Source: a virus
Reading direction: 5' to 3' (one strand)
IMG/VR virus record: IMGVR_UViG_3300020463_000143
Coordinates: 1-23,258 of that record
DNA: 23,258 bases
The number at the start of each line of letters is the position of its first letter. Position 1 is the stretch's first letter. Below are positions 7,894-23,252 of the stretch, one piece after another. The notes below the pieces were generated by a model. It saw nothing but the letters and a program-made list of their open reading frames with translations. It was not told the origin of the DNA and made no database searches. The translations under genes were made by a program, and so were the position numbers.

Positions 7894-9354
7894 TTAATTC
7901 CAATCTGTTTTTTGTATTACAAACGGATAGTTTGCTTCTTTGTAAAATTGTTTCCTTTTAGTTAAGTGCCTTTTTGCATACTTGCAAGTACTTGTTATGT
8001 CCCAAATTTGGACATGGTCTTTATCCTCTGCTTTACGAATACCTCGTCCAATACTTTGTATTACCCGGACAAAACTTTTGCCTGGCTCTAATAGTACAAG
8101 ATTAAATATTCTAGGTATATTAATACCAACTGCGGCAACACCATATGTTGCTACAATAATCTTATTATCTACATCTGCTACTTCATCGTAGTGTTCTTTT
8201 CTATCACCTGCTTTAGTTGCACCACTTATAAAGACTGCTTGGTCTCCTAATCTCCTAACCAGTGCTTTACCAGATTCAACACGGTCAACTAGTACCATTG
8301 TATTACCCGATTCACCTATTGTGTTAAACAGGTTTGCTAGATAGTCTAAACGTTTATCATTTGTAAGCAGATATTTCAATTCGCTTTGATAGTTACTATA
8401 ATCTCCGTGGTCAACTAGCTGTACTATATTTACTTCACAGTTTGCTAAAACACCCATGTCTTGTAGTTCACTAGCACTTTTACGCCCAGTAACTGGCCCC
8501 AAACTTACCAATAAACTCATAAATTCAAACATTTCTTTTGGTATTGTGCCTGTTAGTCCCCAACGTATAGGTACTTGACTCATTACTCCTGTAAGTAATG
8601 TTTTCAATGCATCTGCTTTTGCCATATGTACTTCGTCAACAATAACACATACTACATCTTCAAGGAACTCTCCTATAGTAATTGGCGCCTCTGCATTACG
8701 AGTGTTCTTTAACAAAATATTTAAACTTTGCCAAGTACAAATAGTATGTTGCTTACCAAACTCTTTTCTATCACCATAATACACACCAACGTCTAAACCT
8801 AAGTTAACATAATCTTCTTCAGTCTGTGTCACTAAACTCTTATTAGGCACAATTACAATACTTCGTCCATATGACTCAACTAGGTTACTCAATGCGGCTG
8901 TGATAAGTGTTTTACCAGCACCTGTTGCAATTTCTTGTAGACTCTGAGGGTTGCTAATAAAGTTATTAATAATCTCAATTTGATAATCTCGTAATACAAC
9001 TGGTTCGCCTGCAACTACATGACCTTGCGGCCACTGTTTATCCGAAAATGTTTCAGCAGTAACTGGTTCTAGTACAAAGTCAGTTTGGTAATCGCGATGA
9101 TCAGTAAGAGTAACATTGTATTTCATTTCTTCAAGCATTGGAAGAATATCAGGAAGTAAGTTAATAAATGTACTACCACCAAGTTGAAAATAACTGACTT
9201 TACCATCCCACCTGCCAAGTCTTACTGCTGGCAAGTATCGAGCATAAGGAACTTCATATTTAAATTTATTAGAAAGACGTTTGCGAGCTTCTAAATCAAG
9301 CCCTTCAATTTTTACATTTACTTCATCTTTAACTATTAGGTTTGCAGTTTTCAT
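7894..9354 (-). CDS. uvsW: UvsW-type superfamily 2 DNA helicase
   Basis: ATP-dependent branch-migration/fork-remodelling helicase of T4-like phages; it unwinds R-loops and helps the switch to recombination-driven replication. The N-terminal domain (about residues 1-100) has the UvsW-like ARYLPAVRLGRWDGKVSYF segment. Motor motifs: LRDYQIEIIN (Q-like), ATGAGKT at 143-149, IVDEVHMAKA at 238-247, LTGTIP at 267-272, ATYGVAAVGINIPR, and IQSIGRGIRKAEDK near the C-terminus. At 486 aa it is complete. Start ATG 9354 overlaps the upstream gene stop by 4 nt (ATGA); the ClpP-like gene follows after one base. Confidence 0.93.
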   Translation of the reverse strand: MKTANLIVKDEVNVKIEGLDLEARKRLSNKFKYEVPYARYLPAVRLGRWDGKVSYFQLGGSTFINLLPDILPMLEEMKYNVTLTDHRDYQTDFVLEPVTAETFSDKQWPQGHVVAGEPVVLRDYQIEIINNFISNPQSLQEIATGAGKTLITAALSNLVESYGRSIVIVPNKSLVTQTEEDYVNLGLDVGVYYGDRKEFGKQHTICTWQSLNILLKNTRNAEAPITIGEFLEDVVCVIVDEVHMAKADALKTLLTGVMSQVPIRWGLTGTIPKEMFEFMSLLVSLGPVTGRKSASELQDMGVLANCEVNIVQLVDHGDYSNYQSELKYLLTNDKRLDYLANLFNTIGESGNTMVLVDRVESGKALVRRLGDQAVFISGATKAGDRKEHYDEVADVDNKIIVATYGVAAVGINIPRIFNLVLLEPGKSFVRVIQSIGRGIRKAEDKDHVQIWDITSTCKYAKRHLTKRKQFYKEANYPFVIQKTDWN

Positions 9355-10535
9355 TCTTGCTCAATTGAAAAGTTATAATTTGTATAGTAACAAATCCATG
9401 GCTTATATTTGTCTATTGCTTTTGATTGTATATTACGAAATTTAGTAAAGCCTTGTGTACTAATTATAATGTCTGGTGTCCAATTGTCTGTATTAGACTT
9501 TGGATGATTAAATCTACTTGCACTATCTAGTATAGCAAACTCTGTATCGGAATACAACCTACGACTTGCATCTGTTAGGTTACGATGATACTTTAACATT
9601 ACAGTTGTTTTTTCTTTGCCAACCTTAGCAATTGCTTTTACAATGTTTTCTTCAAGTTCAGTTGCTATATGTCTTCCATCAACAATAAATGCAACTCTGT
9701 TTAGTTCTAGCTCTTTGGCTGCATCTATCAACTCAATAAGTGTGCAATCCTCATATGAAAAGTTGCCACCTCTATTATGTAGCATTTTAATTGACAAATT
9801 TGAGAGTTTAAATGTTGTACTTTTATTAACAACATCAAGGTTTTGATCAGCCGCAGTACGGATCTGTGTTAGTGGTGATTCCGTTACCATATTTGAATCC
9901 CACCATTGTTGCAAAGAACTAGGTGCATTACGAAGATAACTTTTTTTATTTTCAATCACTAACTGTATAGCATATTTATGCCTATTATTTTCAATATCCT
10001 TACACTCTTTAACAAGTACTTTTGCATCATTGCTATATTCAAATTTATGCTTTAGACCCCAACGATAAACTTGTAGAAGATTGTATTCATTATAATCAAC
10101 TTCATACTGTTTATTTTGTTTATTCCACTCTGCTTTCAAAGCCCTTAACTTTTTTGCTAAGGATTTAAATTCATTTATCATTGTCTTATTATAAGGAAAA
10201 CGTATAATGATAGCATTATCATCTAAAGATATCATTCTAGTGCGGTTAACCTGTCGTAGTGTACTACTAAACACTGGAGTGTTTACTATGCCAGTTACAT
10301 CAATACCAATTTTTCCAAATTGCCTAACATACTTCTTAACAAGTTTAATACTTAACTCTCTTTGACGATCACTTAGTCCATCACCATTATTAATACTTCT
10401 TACTGCATTATTGACAAAACTTACATCATAATTAGCCAAACTAATAGGCTTATTTTTAAACTTAGGAGAAATTGGACTAGAAATTAGTCCAACTGCTACC
10501 TTTAAGCAGTATTCAATATCATCTGGTTGTAACAT
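9351..10535 (-). CDS. UvsW-linked protein with HARP-like segment, function unknown
   Basis: 394 aa. No Walker or helicase motifs are seen. At about residues 110-160, AIIIRFPYNKTMINEFKSLAKKLRALKAEWNK followed by QYEVDYNEYNLLQVYRWG resembles the HARP-type DNA-binding module of SMARCAL1-family annealing helicases ('v..PYd..li...K......W......Y.vp'). The C-terminal half (about 270-390) has strand-helix alternation such as LNRVAFIVDGRHIATELEEN, TTVMLKYHRN and DIIISTQGF, possibly a degenerate RecA-like or toprim-like fold. It overlaps uvsW by 4 nt, so it may act as a DNA-binding partner of that helicase (inference). It starts at ATG 10535, just downstream of the terminator at 10578-10547. Confidence 0.75.
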   Translation of the reverse strand: MLQPDDIEYCLKVAVGLISSPISPKFKNKPISLANYDVSFVNNAVRSINNGDGLSDRQRELSIKLVKKYVRQFGKIGIDVTGIVNTPVFSSTLRQVNRTRMISLDDNAIIIRFPYNKTMINEFKSLAKKLRALKAEWNKQNKQYEVDYNEYNLLQVYRWGLKHKFEYSNDAKVLVKECKDIENNRHKYAIQLVIENKKSYLRNAPSSLQQWWDSNMVTESPLTQIRTAADQNLDVVNKSTTFKLSNLSIKMLHNRGGNFSYEDCTLIELIDAAKELELNRVAFIVDGRHIATELEENIVKAIAKVGKEKTTVMLKYHRNLTDASRRLYSDTEFAILDSASRFNHPKSNTDNWTPDIIISTQGFTKFRNIQSKAIDKYKPWICYYTNYNFSIEQE

Positions 10536-17260: not shown

Positions 17261-18325
17261 TTATTCCTCTGGTTGTGTTTCTTCTATTGTATCATCTGTA
17301 GTTATCTCAGTTCCTGCAAGTGCAATATCTTCCATTACCGAATCAAGTTTTTCACCTACCCAGTTTTTACGAAATTCAATAATTACTTCACCTGTACGTT
17401 TACTAGTATATTCAAGTCTATTTCCAGTTTTCTTTAGTAAGCCGGCTTTTTCAAAAATATCAACAAGTCCACTGTAAGGATTCATTCCTGTTTCGTATGG
17501 AATTTCAACTTGTACACCTTCGAATGGTTTAGCATAACGTGTTTTCATTACTTTACAAGCGGCACGGATTCCATGTACTTGTGATGTTTTTACACCGTCT
17601 GCATCGGTTTTAAGTTTGAGTTTTTTCATAGCAACAACAATACTACTTGCATAGATAAAACCTTGTCCGCCTGATATCTTATCATCTGGATCAAACATAT
17701 CTTGTGACTGATATGTGTGGTTGGTTGCTACTAATCCTACATTATAACTACCAAACATGTTAACACAATTTGTTACTAGTGCTTTAAGTGCCTTAGCCTT
17801 ACGACCCATATCACCTTTCATATCACCACCTTCAAACTGATTAAGCTCTGTTGGCGTCATCATCATACCTAAACTATCAATTACAAATAATACCTTAGGA
17901 CGTTCTTCGTCTGGCATTGCTTTGTAGTCTTTCATAAAAGTACTAACCGTTTTTGCTACATCATCTAACATTGCCATGTTAAGTTTCAGAAGTTTTTCTT
18001 CACTTGTGTCAACATTTAATGCTTGTAGCCATCCTTCATCAAGTGCATTTTCACTGTCAATTAGTACTACAAAAATACCTTGATCTTGTGCGGCTTTAAT
18101 AATATTACCACTGGCAATATAACTTTTACCAGCACCTGATTCACCAGCAAATACTGTAACTTTACCTAAAGGAATGCCTTTATGAAAATCACCACTTACT
18201 AGATAATTAAGTGCATAGTTGCCTGTGCTGATCCAATCTGTTGGATCGTTGAATCCTATTGACAATCCGTCAATACTTTTTGTTATATCTTTTCTAAATT
18301 TACTTATGTCAAATGGTCTTGCCAT
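17261..18325 (-). CDS. uvsX: UvsX RecA-like recombinase
   Basis: 354 aa. Forms filaments on ssDNA and drives strand exchange in recombination-dependent replication. Seen: an N-terminal ~55 residues ending STGNYALNYLVSGDF-KGIPLGKV, Walker A GESGAGKS at about 61-68, VLIDSENALDEGW, Walker B VLFVIDSLGMMMT, LVATNHTYQSQDMFDPDDKISGGQGFIYASS (L2-type region), and a C-terminal KKTGNRLEYTSK segment. The tail is acidic. ATG 18325 (MARPFD) is chosen because GGAG lies 7-8 nt upstream; the TTG at 18337 has none. It follows gp32 and precedes the UvsY-like gene, the expected order of functions. Confidence 0.93.
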   Translation of the reverse strand: MARPFDISKFRKDITKSIDGLSIGFNDPTDWISTGNYALNYLVSGDFHKGIPLGKVTVFAGESGAGKSYIASGNIIKAAQDQGIFVVLIDSENALDEGWLQALNVDTSEEKLLKLNMAMLDDVAKTVSTFMKDYKAMPDEERPKVLFVIDSLGMMMTPTELNQFEGGDMKGDMGRKAKALKALVTNCVNMFGSYNVGLVATNHTYQSQDMFDPDDKISGGQGFIYASSIVVAMKKLKLKTDADGVKTSQVHGIRAACKVMKTRYAKPFEGVQVEIPYETGMNPYSGLVDIFEKAGLLKKTGNRLEYTSKRTGEVIIEFRKNWVGEKLDSVMEDIALAGTEITTDDTIEETQPEE

Positions 18326-18343
18326 GTGTTTCTCCAATCAATG

Positions 18344-18383: not shown

Positions 18384-19385
18384 TTAGTTGCTTTGACGTG
18401 AGCGAATCATTGCAAGAATATCTTCGGCACGTTGGCCTGTTCCTGCAGGTTTTTCAACTGCTATCGGGGCAGGTTTTTCAACTGCTACCGGGGCAGGTGT
18501 TGCTCCCATTTCCTCAGGCGTTGCAACAGGTGCAGGAGACGACTCTTCAACTGTTGGTTTTGCTTGTGGAGTTGGAGCAGATCCACTCGGTGCTGATACG
18601 CCTGCTGGACGATAGTAATTACTATACTTTGCAGGATCGTACGGCTTGCCGTCAACACTATCTTCAAACATTTTTTTAATGATTGAAAGTTCTGTTTCGG
18701 AAGGTTTCTTTGGCAAGAAGTCGTTTAGATCAAACAAGCCATTCTTATCAACTGCCGCTTGTTCATCTTCAGTAAGTGCAGATTCTTTTCGAGCCCAATT
18801 ACTTGTACTATAGTCTGCATAACCACCTTTTGAAGTTTTGACTACACGGAAGTCTAGTCCTTGGTTATAATCAGTTGGTAGTTCTTCCATATCTGGATCC
18901 ATTAAACTTGCTTTAATAATATTAAAGAGTTGTGGTCCCATAATGAACCTACGAACCGGATTTGCTGGTGACTCTTCATCAAGTGGATTATCACGAACAA
19001 AGCCCTGGAACAAGTAAGACTTTTTCTTCCAGTACTTACGACCCATATCTTCAAGACTTGAGTCTTTAAACCATGGACGTACTTCAGCAAGGATTGGGCA
19101 AGAACCAGTTGGCTCCCACATTTCCATGCATGGTACCTGTACCATTACTGTCTTTGAATCTGATTGGTCTGCAATACCCTGGAATGGCAAACGAATCATT
19201 GCTCGTTCTACCCAAAAGAATGTATTGTTAGAATTTGCATCTGGAAGGAAACGAATTGTAGATGTTTCGCCTTCTTGAATATTCCAGTGCGGGTATATGG
19301 CGTTATCTCCGCCATTTGAGTTGTTGCCAGATCTGGCTGTTTCTTGTGCTTGTAATTTTGCACGAATTTCTGCTAATGATGCCAT
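18384..19385 (-). CDS. 32: Single-stranded DNA-binding protein, gp32 type
   Basis: 333 aa. Coats ssDNA at forks and interacts with helicase, primase, UvsX and UvsY. N-terminal MASLAEIRAKLQAQE is the basic/LAST-type cooperativity region; the core has YPHWNIQEGETSTIRFLPD, WEPTGSCPI, YLFQGFVRDNP, RRFIMGPQLFNII and FRVVKTSKGGYADYSTSNWARKES, all typical of marine gp32. Only two Cys (86 and 96) remain where T4 gp32 uses His-Cys-Cys-Cys for zinc, so the zinc site looks reduced. The C-terminus is a Pro/Ala-rich linker with a 24-bp direct repeat, ending in an amphipathic helix (AEDILAMIRSRQ), not the T4 acidic tail. AAGG precedes ATG 19385; it has a consensus promoter upstream. Confidence 0.92.
   Translation of the reverse strand: MASLAEIRAKLQAQETARSGNNSNGGDNAIYPHWNIQEGETSTIRFLPDANSNNTFFWVERAMIRLPFQGIADQSDSKTVMVQVPCMEMWEPTGSCPILAEVRPWFKDSSLEDMGRKYWKKKSYLFQGFVRDNPLDEESPANPVRRFIMGPQLFNIIKASLMDPDMEELPTDYNQGLDFRVVKTSKGGYADYSTSNWARKESALTEDEQAAVDKNGLFDLNDFLPKKPSETELSIIKKMFEDSVDGKPYDPAKYSNYYRPAGVSAPSGSAPTPQAKPTVEESSPAPVATPEEMGATPAPVAVEKPAPIAVEKPAGTGQRAEDILAMIRSRQSN
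18447..18494 (-). repeat. 24-bp tandem repeat in the gp32 linker
   Basis: Two adjacent 24-bp copies (18447-18470 and 18471-18494) differing by one base; both begin AGGTTTTTCAACTGCTA on the plus strand. They encode the protein repeat (V/I)AVEKPAP in the Pro/Ala-rich linker. In-frame unit length means copy-number change would only lengthen the linker. Confidence 0.9.
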
Positions 19386-19502: not shown

Positions 19503-19581
19503 CCAGTTTTTTGAATATTTTTTAAGTGAGATACTTTTTGACATATAACTAATAATAACAAACTTAGATACAATGGTCAAG

Positions 19582-19610
19582 AAAAAACTGCTCAAAAGAG
19601 CAGTTTTTTT
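19582..19610. terminator. Bidirectional-looking intrinsic terminator
   Basis: A-tract, ACTGCTC, AAAA loop, GAGCAGT, T-tract: a perfect stem with a T run on either strand. It lies 16 nt after the stop of the 65-aa gene and separates the acidic-protein operon from the gp32 unit. Confidence 0.9.
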
Positions 19611-19625
19611 AATTATTTGTAATTT

Positions 19626-19823
19626 TTATTGTAATCCTGCTAATTTTAGCATTCTTTGCTTGAAGTCTTCTTCTTCTTTTACTGCAATATCTGCTACTCC
19701 GTCACCATCTATGTCAACCATTACCCAGTTATCCTGCATATGATTCATAGAGTCATATTTGCAATCAGTTGTTGGTTGTCCTAGCATATCATCGCAATGT
19801 TTGCATTTTAGTGAATACATCAT
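19626..19823 (-). CDS. Small Cys-rich protein with EF-hand-like loop and LAGL tail (65 aa)
   Basis: 65 aa, function unknown. The N-terminal CKHCDDML-x6-C could bind a metal with CxxC plus Cys21. Near residue 38, DIDGDGVAD matches the EF-hand/dockerin Ca2+ loop DxDxDGxxD. The protein ends EEDFKQRMLKLAGLQ, almost the same as the end of the upstream large protein (GDAFKQRMLELAGLT). Start ATG 19823 (ATGATG) overlaps the large gene stop by 4 nt, so the two are translated together. The shared tail suggests a common partner or targeting signal. Confidence 0.75.
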   Translation of the reverse strand: MMYSLKCKHCDDMLGQPTTDCKYDSMNHMQDNWVMVDIDGDGVADIAVKEEEDFKQRMLKLAGLQ

Positions 19824-22800
19824 GTTAACCCCGCTAATTCTAACATTCGTTGTTTAAAAGCATCGCCATCTTCTTTAGACTCAAAAGATTTACGAGCTTG
19901 ATCTTGCATATCAGCAAGTTCATCATTGTTAATTACTCGGCCAAGATTGGCTAAAGCCTGTCTACAAGACTCGATAAATTCTTCGACATCGTCTTCGTCA
20001 TCTATCGCTCTGACTCCAAAGAAAGCCTTTTTGGTTGCTTCATCTCCAAAAAGTATAACTTCTGCACGGAAATCGTTAAAGTCGTAGTATACATCATCTA
20101 CTGGAACTTCATCTGCACCTAATGCATGGTCTAAAAATTCTTCAATATAGCCTTGGATATCATCTTTGATTTGCTTTGGATCCTTGTTCATTCCATTCCA
20201 AGTTTCTTGTGAAATGTCATCTAAATCAAGATCATCATTTTCAGCATGTGCTAGTTGATCTGGTGTAAGTTGAGTTCTAATATCAAAGCCGTCGTCTTCT
20301 TTAACTGTGCTTTCGACTTTACTCTCTAGTAATCCAAGATTGTCTAGCTCATCACTTATGTACTGTACTGGATCTCCATCTCTACCTTTCATTGTACCAT
20401 ATGGCATATCTTCTGAATAGTAATCAAATAAATCTAAATATAAATCAGTATCGTATACGTCCATTAAATCACCACTCATTTGCAATTTTTTGGCTTCTGC
20501 TGGATATTTTTTCATTATATCCATGACTTGATCTTTTTCCATGTTTCTTTGTGCTACTTGTGGGTAATCAGTATCATCTTCGTCTAATCCAAAAGCAAGG
20601 CTTTTCAGTGATCTTAATTCTTCGTTGTACTCTGCATCATTTTCTGATTCGCCAATATCATACATAAAAATTTTACTGTATACATCTGGATGATCTTGCT
20701 TGATTGCATATTTGATATCTTGCATAAATTTTTCTTGTGCTGAAGTATCTCCTGGACCTCCATATTGACCTGCATGAACAATATCATCACCATCAGCATT
20801 AGCATTTTTCATAAGATTTTCTAATGCTTCGATTGAATCCTCAATATCATCAATCATAATATATGAATAATCAAACGGATCACCTTGCATTAATTCTTTT
20901 TCTACTTCTTCATCACTCATGCCTTTTGCTTTGAGTTCTGCTTTAGCCTCAGCCTCTCCATCATAGTACTCTTTTTGATCTGCTTTATAGGACATTAAAA
21001 GTTTTTCTAATGCTGGCTTTACATCAGCTAGTTTGACACTGGCTCTATCAGGTACTTTCATTGCCTCTTCACGACCAGTATTAGTAGCTTCTTCAGAATC
21101 TTCTACTTGAACTTCTTCTGACATATCAACATCTCCCTCTGCTATGTTTAATAATCTCCTGGCTAAATCTTTTGGCATAGTTGGATAGGACATAATATTT
21201 TTCTTAAGCCAATTTGCAATAATTGGTCTTGCATCTCCATTTGGGTCTTTTTCGCCAGCCGCGTATAAATCATCATATAAACTGTCATCACCTATTCCAA
21301 CACTAATTGCATTTGTTGCATCATCACCATCTGGTCCTAGTGGAAGTGGTTTTTTCATTAATTCTTCAATAGCATCAACATTTTCTACTGTATCTGGAAT
21401 TGCCCATGTGCCTTCGACAATAGTGTTAGCCCAATTTTCAAATTGTTCTGATTCTGTTTTATCTTTGCCGTATAAGTCTTTCTTTGCTTTATTAATTTTT
21501 TTAGTTTTACCTTTAAGATACTTCATTGCAAGACGCATAGAAGCCGCACGTTGTTCTGCATTATCCTGGTCAAGTGTTGCAATTGCATTACCCATTGCAT
21601 CATCTGCAACATTTACTTCTAAGTAGTCTAATACACTTTTTACAATGTTGCGATTCTTTTGTGCTATATTCTTTTCTTCGTCTTTGTCAAACTTTTTAAC
21701 TTTTATCATATCAAGTTCTGATTTAAGTTTTTGAACCTGATCTGGTACATCAAGTATTTCAATGTCATCGTTTGATTTAGAAAAAGCAATTATATCATTT
21801 GTGTTTGCTTGTTTTTTCGCATCCATGTCTTTTTCAAATTCTGCATAATCATCAGCTTCTTGATCGGCTACTTTGTTATTTTCCATTGCTTTTAATCCTC
21901 GGGCTAAACTTGGTAATACACTATCAACAACATTGTCTTTATGTATTCTTACTAATTTTGTACGAATTTCATCTAAATCTGCTTGTTCAATACTTTCTTC
22001 TGTAGGCTCGTATTGCTTAATATAACTTGCATAACCTTTTGGTCCTGACAGTGTTTTCAGTGTAGAATGTAATCCCATTGCACGTTCACGTGCTTGTTCT
22101 ATAATTTTTGTTGCTTCGTCTTGTTCTGCAAAGTTGTCTGCACGTCTAAAAGATTTTACAAACTTTTTTAAATCTACAACTTCTTGAACTAATTCAAGTA
22201 TATGTTGTCCAACTTCATCTTCATATACACCACCTTGGTTAACATGTTGTGCTAACGCTCTTGCACCTGCTAGATAATTATGTGGTAATTTTGTTCTTTC
22301 CTTGGCACTATTTTCAACATATAAACTGTGTATGTATCGTGTACGACTTCCACGCTTTTCTTCATCAACTGGCTTTTGGTGCTTAACTACTACTCTTACT
22401 TCGCCAATGTTTTGATAACTTGTTTTTAGACTTCCGTGCATCTTGCCTTCCAATGTAATTTCTTCGACGTTATTTGACGTCATATTTGTTTTAATGTAGG
22501 CATAGTCTTTCTTGTCAAGTTGTTGTTTTCCAATGTTACGCACATCGAAACCCATTAAGTTGCGTTTTGCAAAATAACGAAGTTCTTTTAAAAACCCATA
22601 CCAGTCTTTCTTATCATTATATCGCATATCTTCAGAAATATTATTGTTATAGTAAACTACGAGAGTTGAAGGATCAACAATGTTTACTGTTACGTTTCCA
22701 TAGGTATTACCACTAGCTGAATATTCTAGTGTAAATATTCTTCCAGTACTAGCATCAATTGTACTAAGTGCTTGTTCGTTTGCAATAGTTAACTTATCAA

Positions 22801-22855
22801 ACTTTTTGCCTAATACGGCACTTAAATCTTTTGCTATTTTGTTATGTATTTCCAT
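19820..22855 (-). CDS. Large acidic protein of unknown function (about 1011 aa)
   Basis: No enzyme domain recognised. The N-terminal ~230 residues are strand-rich with basic patches (TLEYSASGNTYGNVTVNIVDPS, WYGFLKELRYFAKRNLMGFDVRNIG, KTNMTSNNVEEITLEGKMHGS, and EVRVVVKHQKPVDE followed by RTRYIHSLYVEN). Residues ~230-560 are charged helices, probably coiled coil. From ~560 on there are repeated blocks of Asp/Glu-rich helical sequence with DDxxD patches. It ends FKQRMLELAGLT. The ATG at 22855 (MEIHNKI) is preferred because it begins 4 nt after the preceding stop; an in-frame ATG at 22891 would overlap the previous gene by 32 nt, and neither has a clear ribosome site. Size, acidity and a terminal tag suggest a scaffold, prohead-core or internal virion protein, but this is inference. 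Confidence 0.75.
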   Translation of the reverse strand: MEIHNKIAKDLSAVLGKKFDKLTIANEQALSTIDASTGRIFTLEYSASGNTYGNVTVNIVDPSTLVVYYNNNISEDMRYNDKKDWYGFLKELRYFAKRNLMGFDVRNIGKQQLDKKDYAYIKTNMTSNNVEEITLEGKMHGSLKTSYQNIGEVRVVVKHQKPVDEEKRGSRTRYIHSLYVENSAKERTKLPHNYLAGARALAQHVNQGGVYEDEVGQHILELVQEVVDLKKFVKSFRRADNFAEQDEATKIIEQARERAMGLHSTLKTLSGPKGYASYIKQYEPTEESIEQADLDEIRTKLVRIHKDNVVDSVLPSLARGLKAMENNKVADQEADDYAEFEKDMDAKKQANTNDIIAFSKSNDDIEILDVPDQVQKLKSELDMIKVKKFDKDEEKNIAQKNRNIVKSVLDYLEVNVADDAMGNAIATLDQDNAEQRAASMRLAMKYLKGKTKKINKAKKDLYGKDKTESEQFENWANTIVEGTWAIPDTVENVDAIEELMKKPLPLGPDGDDATNAISVGIGDDSLYDDLYAAGEKDPNGDARPIIANWLKKNIMSYPTMPKDLARRLLNIAEGDVDMSEEVQVEDSEEATNTGREEAMKVPDRASVKLADVKPALEKLLMSYKADQKEYYDGEAEAKAELKAKGMSDEEVEKELMQGDPFDYSYIMIDDIEDSIEALENLMKNANADGDDIVHAGQYGGPGDTSAQEKFMQDIKYAIKQDHPDVYSKIFMYDIGESENDAEYNEELRSLKSLAFGLDEDDTDYPQVAQRNMEKDQVMDIMKKYPAEAKKLQMSGDLMDVYDTDLYLDLFDYYSEDMPYGTMKGRDGDPVQYISDELDNLGLLESKVESTVKEDDGFDIRTQLTPDQLAHAENDDLDLDDISQETWNGMNKDPKQIKDDIQGYIEEFLDHALGADEVPVDDVYYDFNDFRAEVILFGDEATKKAFFGVRAIDDEDDVEEFIESCRQALANLGRVINNDELADMQDQARKSFESKEDGDAFKQRMLELAGLT

Positions 22856-22859
22856 ATTA

Positions 22860-23252
22860 TTATTTATCCGATATTCTTTGTCTTGCGGCATTTAAAATTG
22901 CCAGGTTTTGCTGAATCAACACCGGAACTGGCGTTGAAAAACCGCCATAACAAGGATGACTATACAACCATTCTTCATGGTCTCTACAGACATTCAACCT
23001 GTTATGCACTTTACATAACAACCTGCCACTAGCATGTTTGTGTATCCACATTCTAGCAACATTATCTTTTAACGGCGTAATGTTTTGTTCACCCTTCCAT
23101 TTTTGGACGTCTATCTTTTGTCTTTTCCAATAAGACTTACTCCAAGGACAAACACTTATGATAGAAGCAAAGTACTCGCTCCAATCTTCTTTACTTACGC
23201 TTTCCGCCTTTTCCGCCACGTTTTGCCATTTTCTGACTCCTTTTCTATACAC
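22860..23252 (-). CDS. Conserved-type phage protein (up to 130 aa), start uncertain
   Basis: Not assigned a function. Strong W/P/H-rich features: EDWSEYFASIISVCPWSKSYWKRQKID-x-QKW, LLCKVHNRLNVCRDHEEWLYSHPCYGGFSTPVPVLIQQNLAILNAARQRI. The ordered aromatic and Cys/His residues suggest a defined small fold; I recall this type from marine T4-like phages but no role. The frame has no ATG: GTG at 23252 or GTG at 23219 are possible, and it stays open to the window end. A strong ribosome site (GGAG) lies 7 nt before an ATG at 23229 in another frame, which reads MAKRGGKGGKRK then stops, so the true N-terminus may be reached by a frameshift. Confidence 0.65.
   Translation of the reverse strand: MYRKGVRKWQNVAEKAESVSKEDWSEYFASIISVCPWSKSYWKRQKIDVQKWKGEQNITPLKDNVARMWIHKHASGRLLCKVHNRLNVCRDHEEWLYSHPCYGGFSTPVPVLIQQNLAILNAARQRISDK
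23191..23229 (-). other. 12-codon basic micro-ORF overlapping the 130-aa frame
   Basis: ATG 23229 preceded by AAAGGAGTCAGAAA reads MAKRGGKGGKRK and then TAA. The start signal is better than any in the overlapping frame. It may be a leader peptide, a frameshift donor for the 130-aa protein, or a sequence error splitting one gene. Confidence 0.45.

Follow-up and report, generated by a model that had tools for sequence, protein, structure and literature searches.

Two adjacent minus-strand genes in the 23,258-nucleotide viral sequence that we analysed (its full length is called the window here) encode proteins of 1011 and 65 amino acids that both end in FKQRML-x-LAGL-x, and prohead scaffolds of related jumbo phages terminate in a tail of this kind. 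This tail is shared, old and kept while its neighbours change, and it occurs on scaffold and virion proteins. On balance we favour its being a prohead-docking (capsid-targeting) peptide of the scaffold and of internal head proteins, a reading drawn from sequence comparison; its binding, its partner and the recruitment of proteins to the head are what we infer.

Results and discussion

The gene for the large protein, an acidic mosaic head protein (PHROGs phrog_13484, virion structural protein, E 2e-22), lies at 19,820–22,855 on the minus strand. Its frame is open over 19,820–22,891, and since homologues begin at the second ATG (M-E/Q-IHNKIA) the shorter gene of 1011 codons was adopted. The 65-aa protein is encoded on the same strand at 19,626–19,823; its domain, marked by CxxC...C and DxDxDG, precedes the tail. 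Stop and start of the two genes overlap by four bases, ATGA (19,820–19,823, minus strand), and the pair is followed by a terminator-like hairpin of 13 pairs and a T run (19,581–19,610). The next genes in the window encode SSB/gp32 (18,384–19,385) and UvsX (17,261–18,337). The virus record (G000) amounts to 23 kb, and the scaffold gene of this phage lies outside it. Two further frames were noted in passing: a 63-aa frame that lies upstream of the gene for the large protein (22,860–23,051, minus strand; MWIHKHASGRLLCKVHNRLNVC...), which has a close counterpart at G002:32582-32773, and a 394-aa ORF adjoining the helicase gene (9,351–10,535, minus strand), for which PHROGs and Pfam gave no match.

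The last 14 residues of the two proteins, DAFKQRMLELAGLT (19,823–19,864, minus strand) and EDFKQRMLKLAGLQ (19,629–19,670, minus strand), align without gaps and with 10 identities. The resulting BLOSUM62 score of 48 was matched or exceeded in 43 of 2,000,000 pairs of C-termini drawn at random from six phage genomes, among which there may be homologous pairs, and in none of 1,000,000 shuffles of the two tails. BLASTP between the proteins matched the tail alone (11 aa, 91%, E 2e-4) and returned nothing once the tails had been cut off. The match is beyond chance, and the shared C-terminal tag put forward in the original prediction was thus confirmed. A second phage with the same split arrangement (G008/L015) again has both tails, DAFKQRMLELAGL and DFKERMLTLAGLQ, each running up to its stop codon. 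Scanning viral contigs with a degenerate DNA pattern for K(Q/E)RMLxLAG returned the G008 pair together with matches that we read as chance, for example one inside a 993-residue frame of L131.

The original prediction had also allowed for a duplicated 3' end. Adjacent genes with nearly identical tails would suit a recent duplication devoid of function, yet nucleotide comparison of the 3' ends spoke against it: synonymous codons differ at six of the 10 positions where the residues agree, and over 100 nt upstream of the two tails the identity is 29%, which is background. Different codons combined with unrelated upstream DNA indicate that the similarity is held at the protein level. As the second phage also has both tails, and similar tails occur on unlinked genes, a recent duplication is hardly credible; an ancient one could be the origin of the tail pair.

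The large protein and its relatives

The match of the large protein to phrog_13484, which belongs to the head and packaging category, covers aa 99–321 (E 1.7e-22), and its composition is 21% D+E and 13% K+R. The N-terminal part (aa 1–343; 21,827–22,855, minus strand) was found by tblastn and alignment to be common to the jumbo phages PA5oct, RaK2 and 121Q. A shorter relative sits between the terminase and SSB genes in RaK2, 121Q and Vibrio 2.275, and the relative in PA5oct, gp278, has been detected by MS in the virion. The shorter relatives in PA5oct, RaK2 and 121Q have no tail, yet are classed as virion proteins. A fold search yielded no PDB match at E ≤ 0.001 and only weak acetyltransferase-like and Crl-like ones, which were set aside. 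One viral-library match carried the name "large polyvalent protein-associated domain".

In marine relatives about 600 N-terminal residues are common, at 51–63% identity, and beyond that point the proteins become mosaic, with modules inserted, lost or common to other proteins. The corresponding region of exchangeable modules in the window protein spans aa ~573–997 (19,865–21,139, minus strand), and some of its modules also occur in other proteins of relatives. All complete close homologues nevertheless end in [IM]LxLAGL(K/T), as RILGLAGLK, KILGLAGLK, EILFLAGLK or RMLELAGLT: the 200–400 residues ahead of the tail have been swapped between homologues and are not collinear, and the tail has been kept. 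Among distant homologues, L016 and L022 carry a near-end variant (IAKMKAMAGV or IAKMKSMAGV), the tail of L150 and L151 is degenerate, and that of L142 is full (QRIKDLAGL). Mosaic C-terminal halves were seen in head proteins of the window (19,865–21,139) and of L002, L045, L041, L136, L142 and L150, with the same modules recurring in differing proteins and orders, such as the YSEDMPY...DGDPVQYISDEL segment.

The 65-aa protein had no match in PHROGs, Pfam or phage records. In L002, L004, L006 and G002 its domain plus tail forms the end of the large protein, so that the fused product has one tail; in L045 the domain is internal with an LSGL copy directly after it, and in L017–L019 it lies within a 324-aa protein that starts MNDLERILNLAGV. 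The split form was found in the window and in G008/L015. From these comparisons, we read the window gene pair as the split version of a gene that is fused in relatives, each half being tailed. The description of the two proteins as otherwise unrelated consequently holds as far as BLASTP between them sees the tail alone, and fails in that relatives carry the small domain fused to the large protein.

A prohead scaffold with the same kind of tail

The tail recurs in relatives and far beyond the window, so that the outcome named as refuting the original prediction, absence from all relatives and from the rest of the genome, did not occur. When relatives were scanned for proteins with the motif at the end, G001 and G002 proved to encode a coiled-coil protein of about 360 aa that ends in IIEIKRLAGL. 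Annotated homologues and gene order identify this protein as the prohead scaffold (gp22 position): several cultured jumbo phages have homologues that bear the annotation scaffolding protein, and the gene for the homologue stands immediately before that for the major capsid protein (MCP) in Atu_ph07, and between the MCP gene and the gene for a gp21-like protease in PA5oct and SCTP-2. For G001 and G002 themselves the assignment is by homology, the gene order coming from the other phages. A counterpart of the T4 gp22 scaffold had not been confirmed in the SPN3US group of giant phages (PMC5694885).

Scaffolds ending in the motif or a looser form of it were found in marine relatives, PA5oct, Atu_ph07, RaK2, Vibrio 2.275 and SCTP-2, RaK2 and Vibrio 2.275 having looser ends; IIEIKRLAGL and VEELRRLAGIK, each followed by the stop codon, are examples. 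The tail is retained across diverged members, and in an alignment of 11 sequences its glycine occupies one of the 22 columns that do not vary. Ahead of the tail nearly all scaffolds have a triplet of the form hydrophobic-x-E as well as a TGN(R/K)-like segment. The latter segment, TGN/TGD/TGK(R/K), lies between coiled coil and tail in all 11 scaffolds, with T and G invariant. Both G001 and G002 encode a tailed scaffold and a tailed large protein, far apart on one contig each. Beyond the tail the scaffold has no similarity to the tailed homologues of the large protein, and it has no convincing solved structural relative. The gp22 scaffolds of T4 and P-SSM2 lack the motif at the C-terminus, and no convincing copy was found at the C-termini of Melnitz and HTVC008M proteins.

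Further carriers of the motif

A profile built from the scaffold tails alone gave 17 C-terminal matches at a score of at least 8, the scaffolds themselves included, against 3.5 expected from internal windows; genes in the scans were called by a longest-ORF proxy, and the counts include homologues of one family. The window tails scored 11.5 and 7.5, which is moderate, against 17–27 in relatives. Large proteins of a third family have such an end as well: ELDRIKYLSGL in the 899-aa protein of G001, and ELDRLKHLSGL, EIDRLKHLSGL or DIQRIKDLAGL in its relatives.

The same profile also picked up copies at N-termini or inside proteins. PA5oct gp281 carries MFNINDILRLAGV and TLDEISKLAGI, and PA5oct gp249 carries EIDRIKKLAGI, both being virion proteins by MS/MS; further such copies lie in the homologous phrog_15988 proteins RaK2 ORF050 and Vibrio O_389 (category head and packaging) and in a 68–78-aa protein beside the terminase gene of marine phages. 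Small proteins of 66–78 aa with the motif at the N-terminus, then a G(Y/L)(T/K)P-like segment, were seen at L009:2774-3007, L003:2138-2440, L152:2351-2557, L153:5492-5698 and L162:4597-4812, and two of these had no match in phage records. Seven phage genomes contain 26 occurrences of a simple pattern, where shuffling within proteins gives about 5; some of the 26 are membrane segments or due to chance. The four PA5oct profile matches outside the scaffold all lie in proteins detected by MS, a set that accounts for 44% of residues; one of the four is inside the MCP and may be chance. Such N-terminal and internal copies, some possibly fortuitous, suggest that a free C-terminus is not essential.

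This distribution bears on whether the tail might be a signal for degradation or processing, either an ssrA-like C-degron or a protease recognition tag. The extreme C-terminal position of the window copies and the destruction of T4 scaffold proteins during maturation would be in keeping with it, yet the ends are LAGLT, LAGLQ or LAGLK and not LAA, there are copies at N-termini and inside proteins, and proteins with internal copies are still present in PA5oct virions. We regard such a signal as very improbable. Targeting to a protease or chaperone, another suggestion of the original prediction, received no specific support.

Predicted structure of the tail

The terminal helix predicted, with modest confidence, for the two window proteins (aa 994–1007 of the large and 52–61 of the small) ends at the A-G step in both. 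Over about 11–14 residues the tail follows the pattern (D/E)-hydrophobic-x-x-hydrophobic-x-x-L, then A/S-G-hydrophobic. Hydrophobic residues at every 3–4 positions followed by L-A-G-hydrophobic would suit an amphipathic helix that is capped and ends in a short hook.

Since a helix followed by A-G-hydrophobic is a common helix-capping pattern and the modules clearly shuffle, the tail could be a structural end only, that is, a capped helix packed on the preceding domain or on its own oligomer and spread by module shuffling. We consider this rather doubtful: homologues that keep the tail have wholly different preceding modules, the scaffold is otherwise dissimilar to the tailed proteins, and the tail glycine is invariant even among diverged scaffolds.

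Hydrophobic-x-E sites adjoin seven of 35 internal copies against 3.2 expected (P 0.03), a weak enrichment, and C-terminal copies gave no significant excess. Scaffold tails are preceded by a hydrophobic-x-E-S/T/G-like triplet, and no canonical hydrophobic-x-E triplet stands just before the window tails. Release of the tail by the prohead protease at such sites is only suggested by these data.

Proposed function

The scaffold bears the same kind of tail as the window proteins, and scaffold and internal head proteins therefore probably share one receptor. Under the docking model that we favour, the extreme C-terminal residues (about 11–14) would fold as an amphipathic helix with A/S-G-hydrophobic as its cap or hook, and scaffold and internal head proteins would plug into the same prohead receptor during assembly. 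The inner face of the MCP would be the most likely receptor, the portal or protease less so. The large acidic and 65-aa proteins would in this way be held in the prohead through the scaffold's own contact. Several findings speak against the model: the moderate profile scores of the window tails, the tailless gp22 scaffolds of T4 and P-SSM2, the tailless shorter relatives of the large protein in PA5oct, RaK2 and 121Q, and the motif copies away from a free C-terminus. Of the uses named in the original prediction, a docking or targeting peptide, for instance for capsid packaging, fits best with the scaffold tails in relatives and the copies in virion proteins, and such a peptide would bind its receptor and might act in packaging.

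Alternatively, the tail could join the core proteins (scaffold, large and small) to one another or through a common adaptor, leaving the shell untouched. The tagged proteins are acidic and often helical, and T4 internal proteins are likewise held to the core, for which they have affinity, and co-purify with gp22 (PMC9026906). The same tail on scaffold and cargo is, however, better explained by a common third partner, and we think joining within the core unlikely, if still worth serious consideration.

A wider form of the docking model is that the motif serves as a "zip code" of this jumbo myovirus lineage: a single helix-and-hook motif, placed at either terminus or internally, would give the scaffold and many acidic head proteins, modular and quick to shuffle, a receptor in common within the growing capsid, new cargo being recruited by gain of the motif. 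We offer this tentatively, as a distinct possibility. The sorting of many proteins into the heads of jumbo phages is poorly understood, and a motif common to scaffold and cargo provides a testable sorting rule that predicts internal head proteins from sequence alone. The tail might also serve as a handle by which foreign proteins are loaded into very large capsids.

Comparison with known systems

In open-access papers we found no description of this motif or of a C-terminal motif of jumbo-phage scaffolds. The cultured members of phrog_13484 (PA5oct gp278, RaK2 and 121Q) resemble the large protein in its N-terminal part and in its place between terminase and SSB; they are of about 430–500 aa, whereas the window protein has the mosaic extension and the tail.

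In T4, internal proteins enter the core by means of a short N-terminal capsid targeting sequence (CTS) that is removed by gp21 (PMC9026906), cleavage occurring after L/I-x-E (PMC9026906, PMC5694885). Like the CTS, the tail is a short portable sequence on several otherwise unrelated head proteins, and head assembly is T4-like and includes a gp21-like protease. Unlike the N-terminal CTS, each window copy forms the very end of its protein, N-terminal copies being confined to other proteins. Separately, a conserved protein of 161–191 aa near the terminase gene begins MKTFQQYLTES, MKSFKEYLTES or MKTFKQYLMEN (G002:36505-37014 (L041) and G001:197861-198406; also in G003–G007 and G009–G011). In relatives where it starts with MKTFQQYLTES or MKTFKQYLMEN, a length of 169–181 aa was noted. 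These starts resemble those of T4 internal proteins, T4 gene starts matching the pattern, and a T4-type targeting signal may exist beside the tail system in marine relatives.

In phage 80alpha and the island SaPI1, the scaffold and CpmB have similar C-terminal 16 residues, made up of an amphipathic helix of 11 residues and a hook of 5, that are bound to the capsid protein; mutations in helix and hook led to phage lethality or loss of capsid size redirection (PMC5644958). The window tail similarly has a predicted amphipathic helix at the C-terminus with a short hook after it, and is likewise common to a scaffold and a second protein (the large protein in G001 and G002). It differs in having L-A/S-G-hydrophobic in place of RIIK, which is absent from the jumbo-phage motif, in the unrelated scaffolds, and in the many carriers with N-terminal and internal copies; capsid binding has been seen in 80alpha/SaPI1, and would be predicted here. 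The tail would act much as the helix-and-hook of 80alpha/SaPI1 or the T4 CTS does, but belongs to neither.
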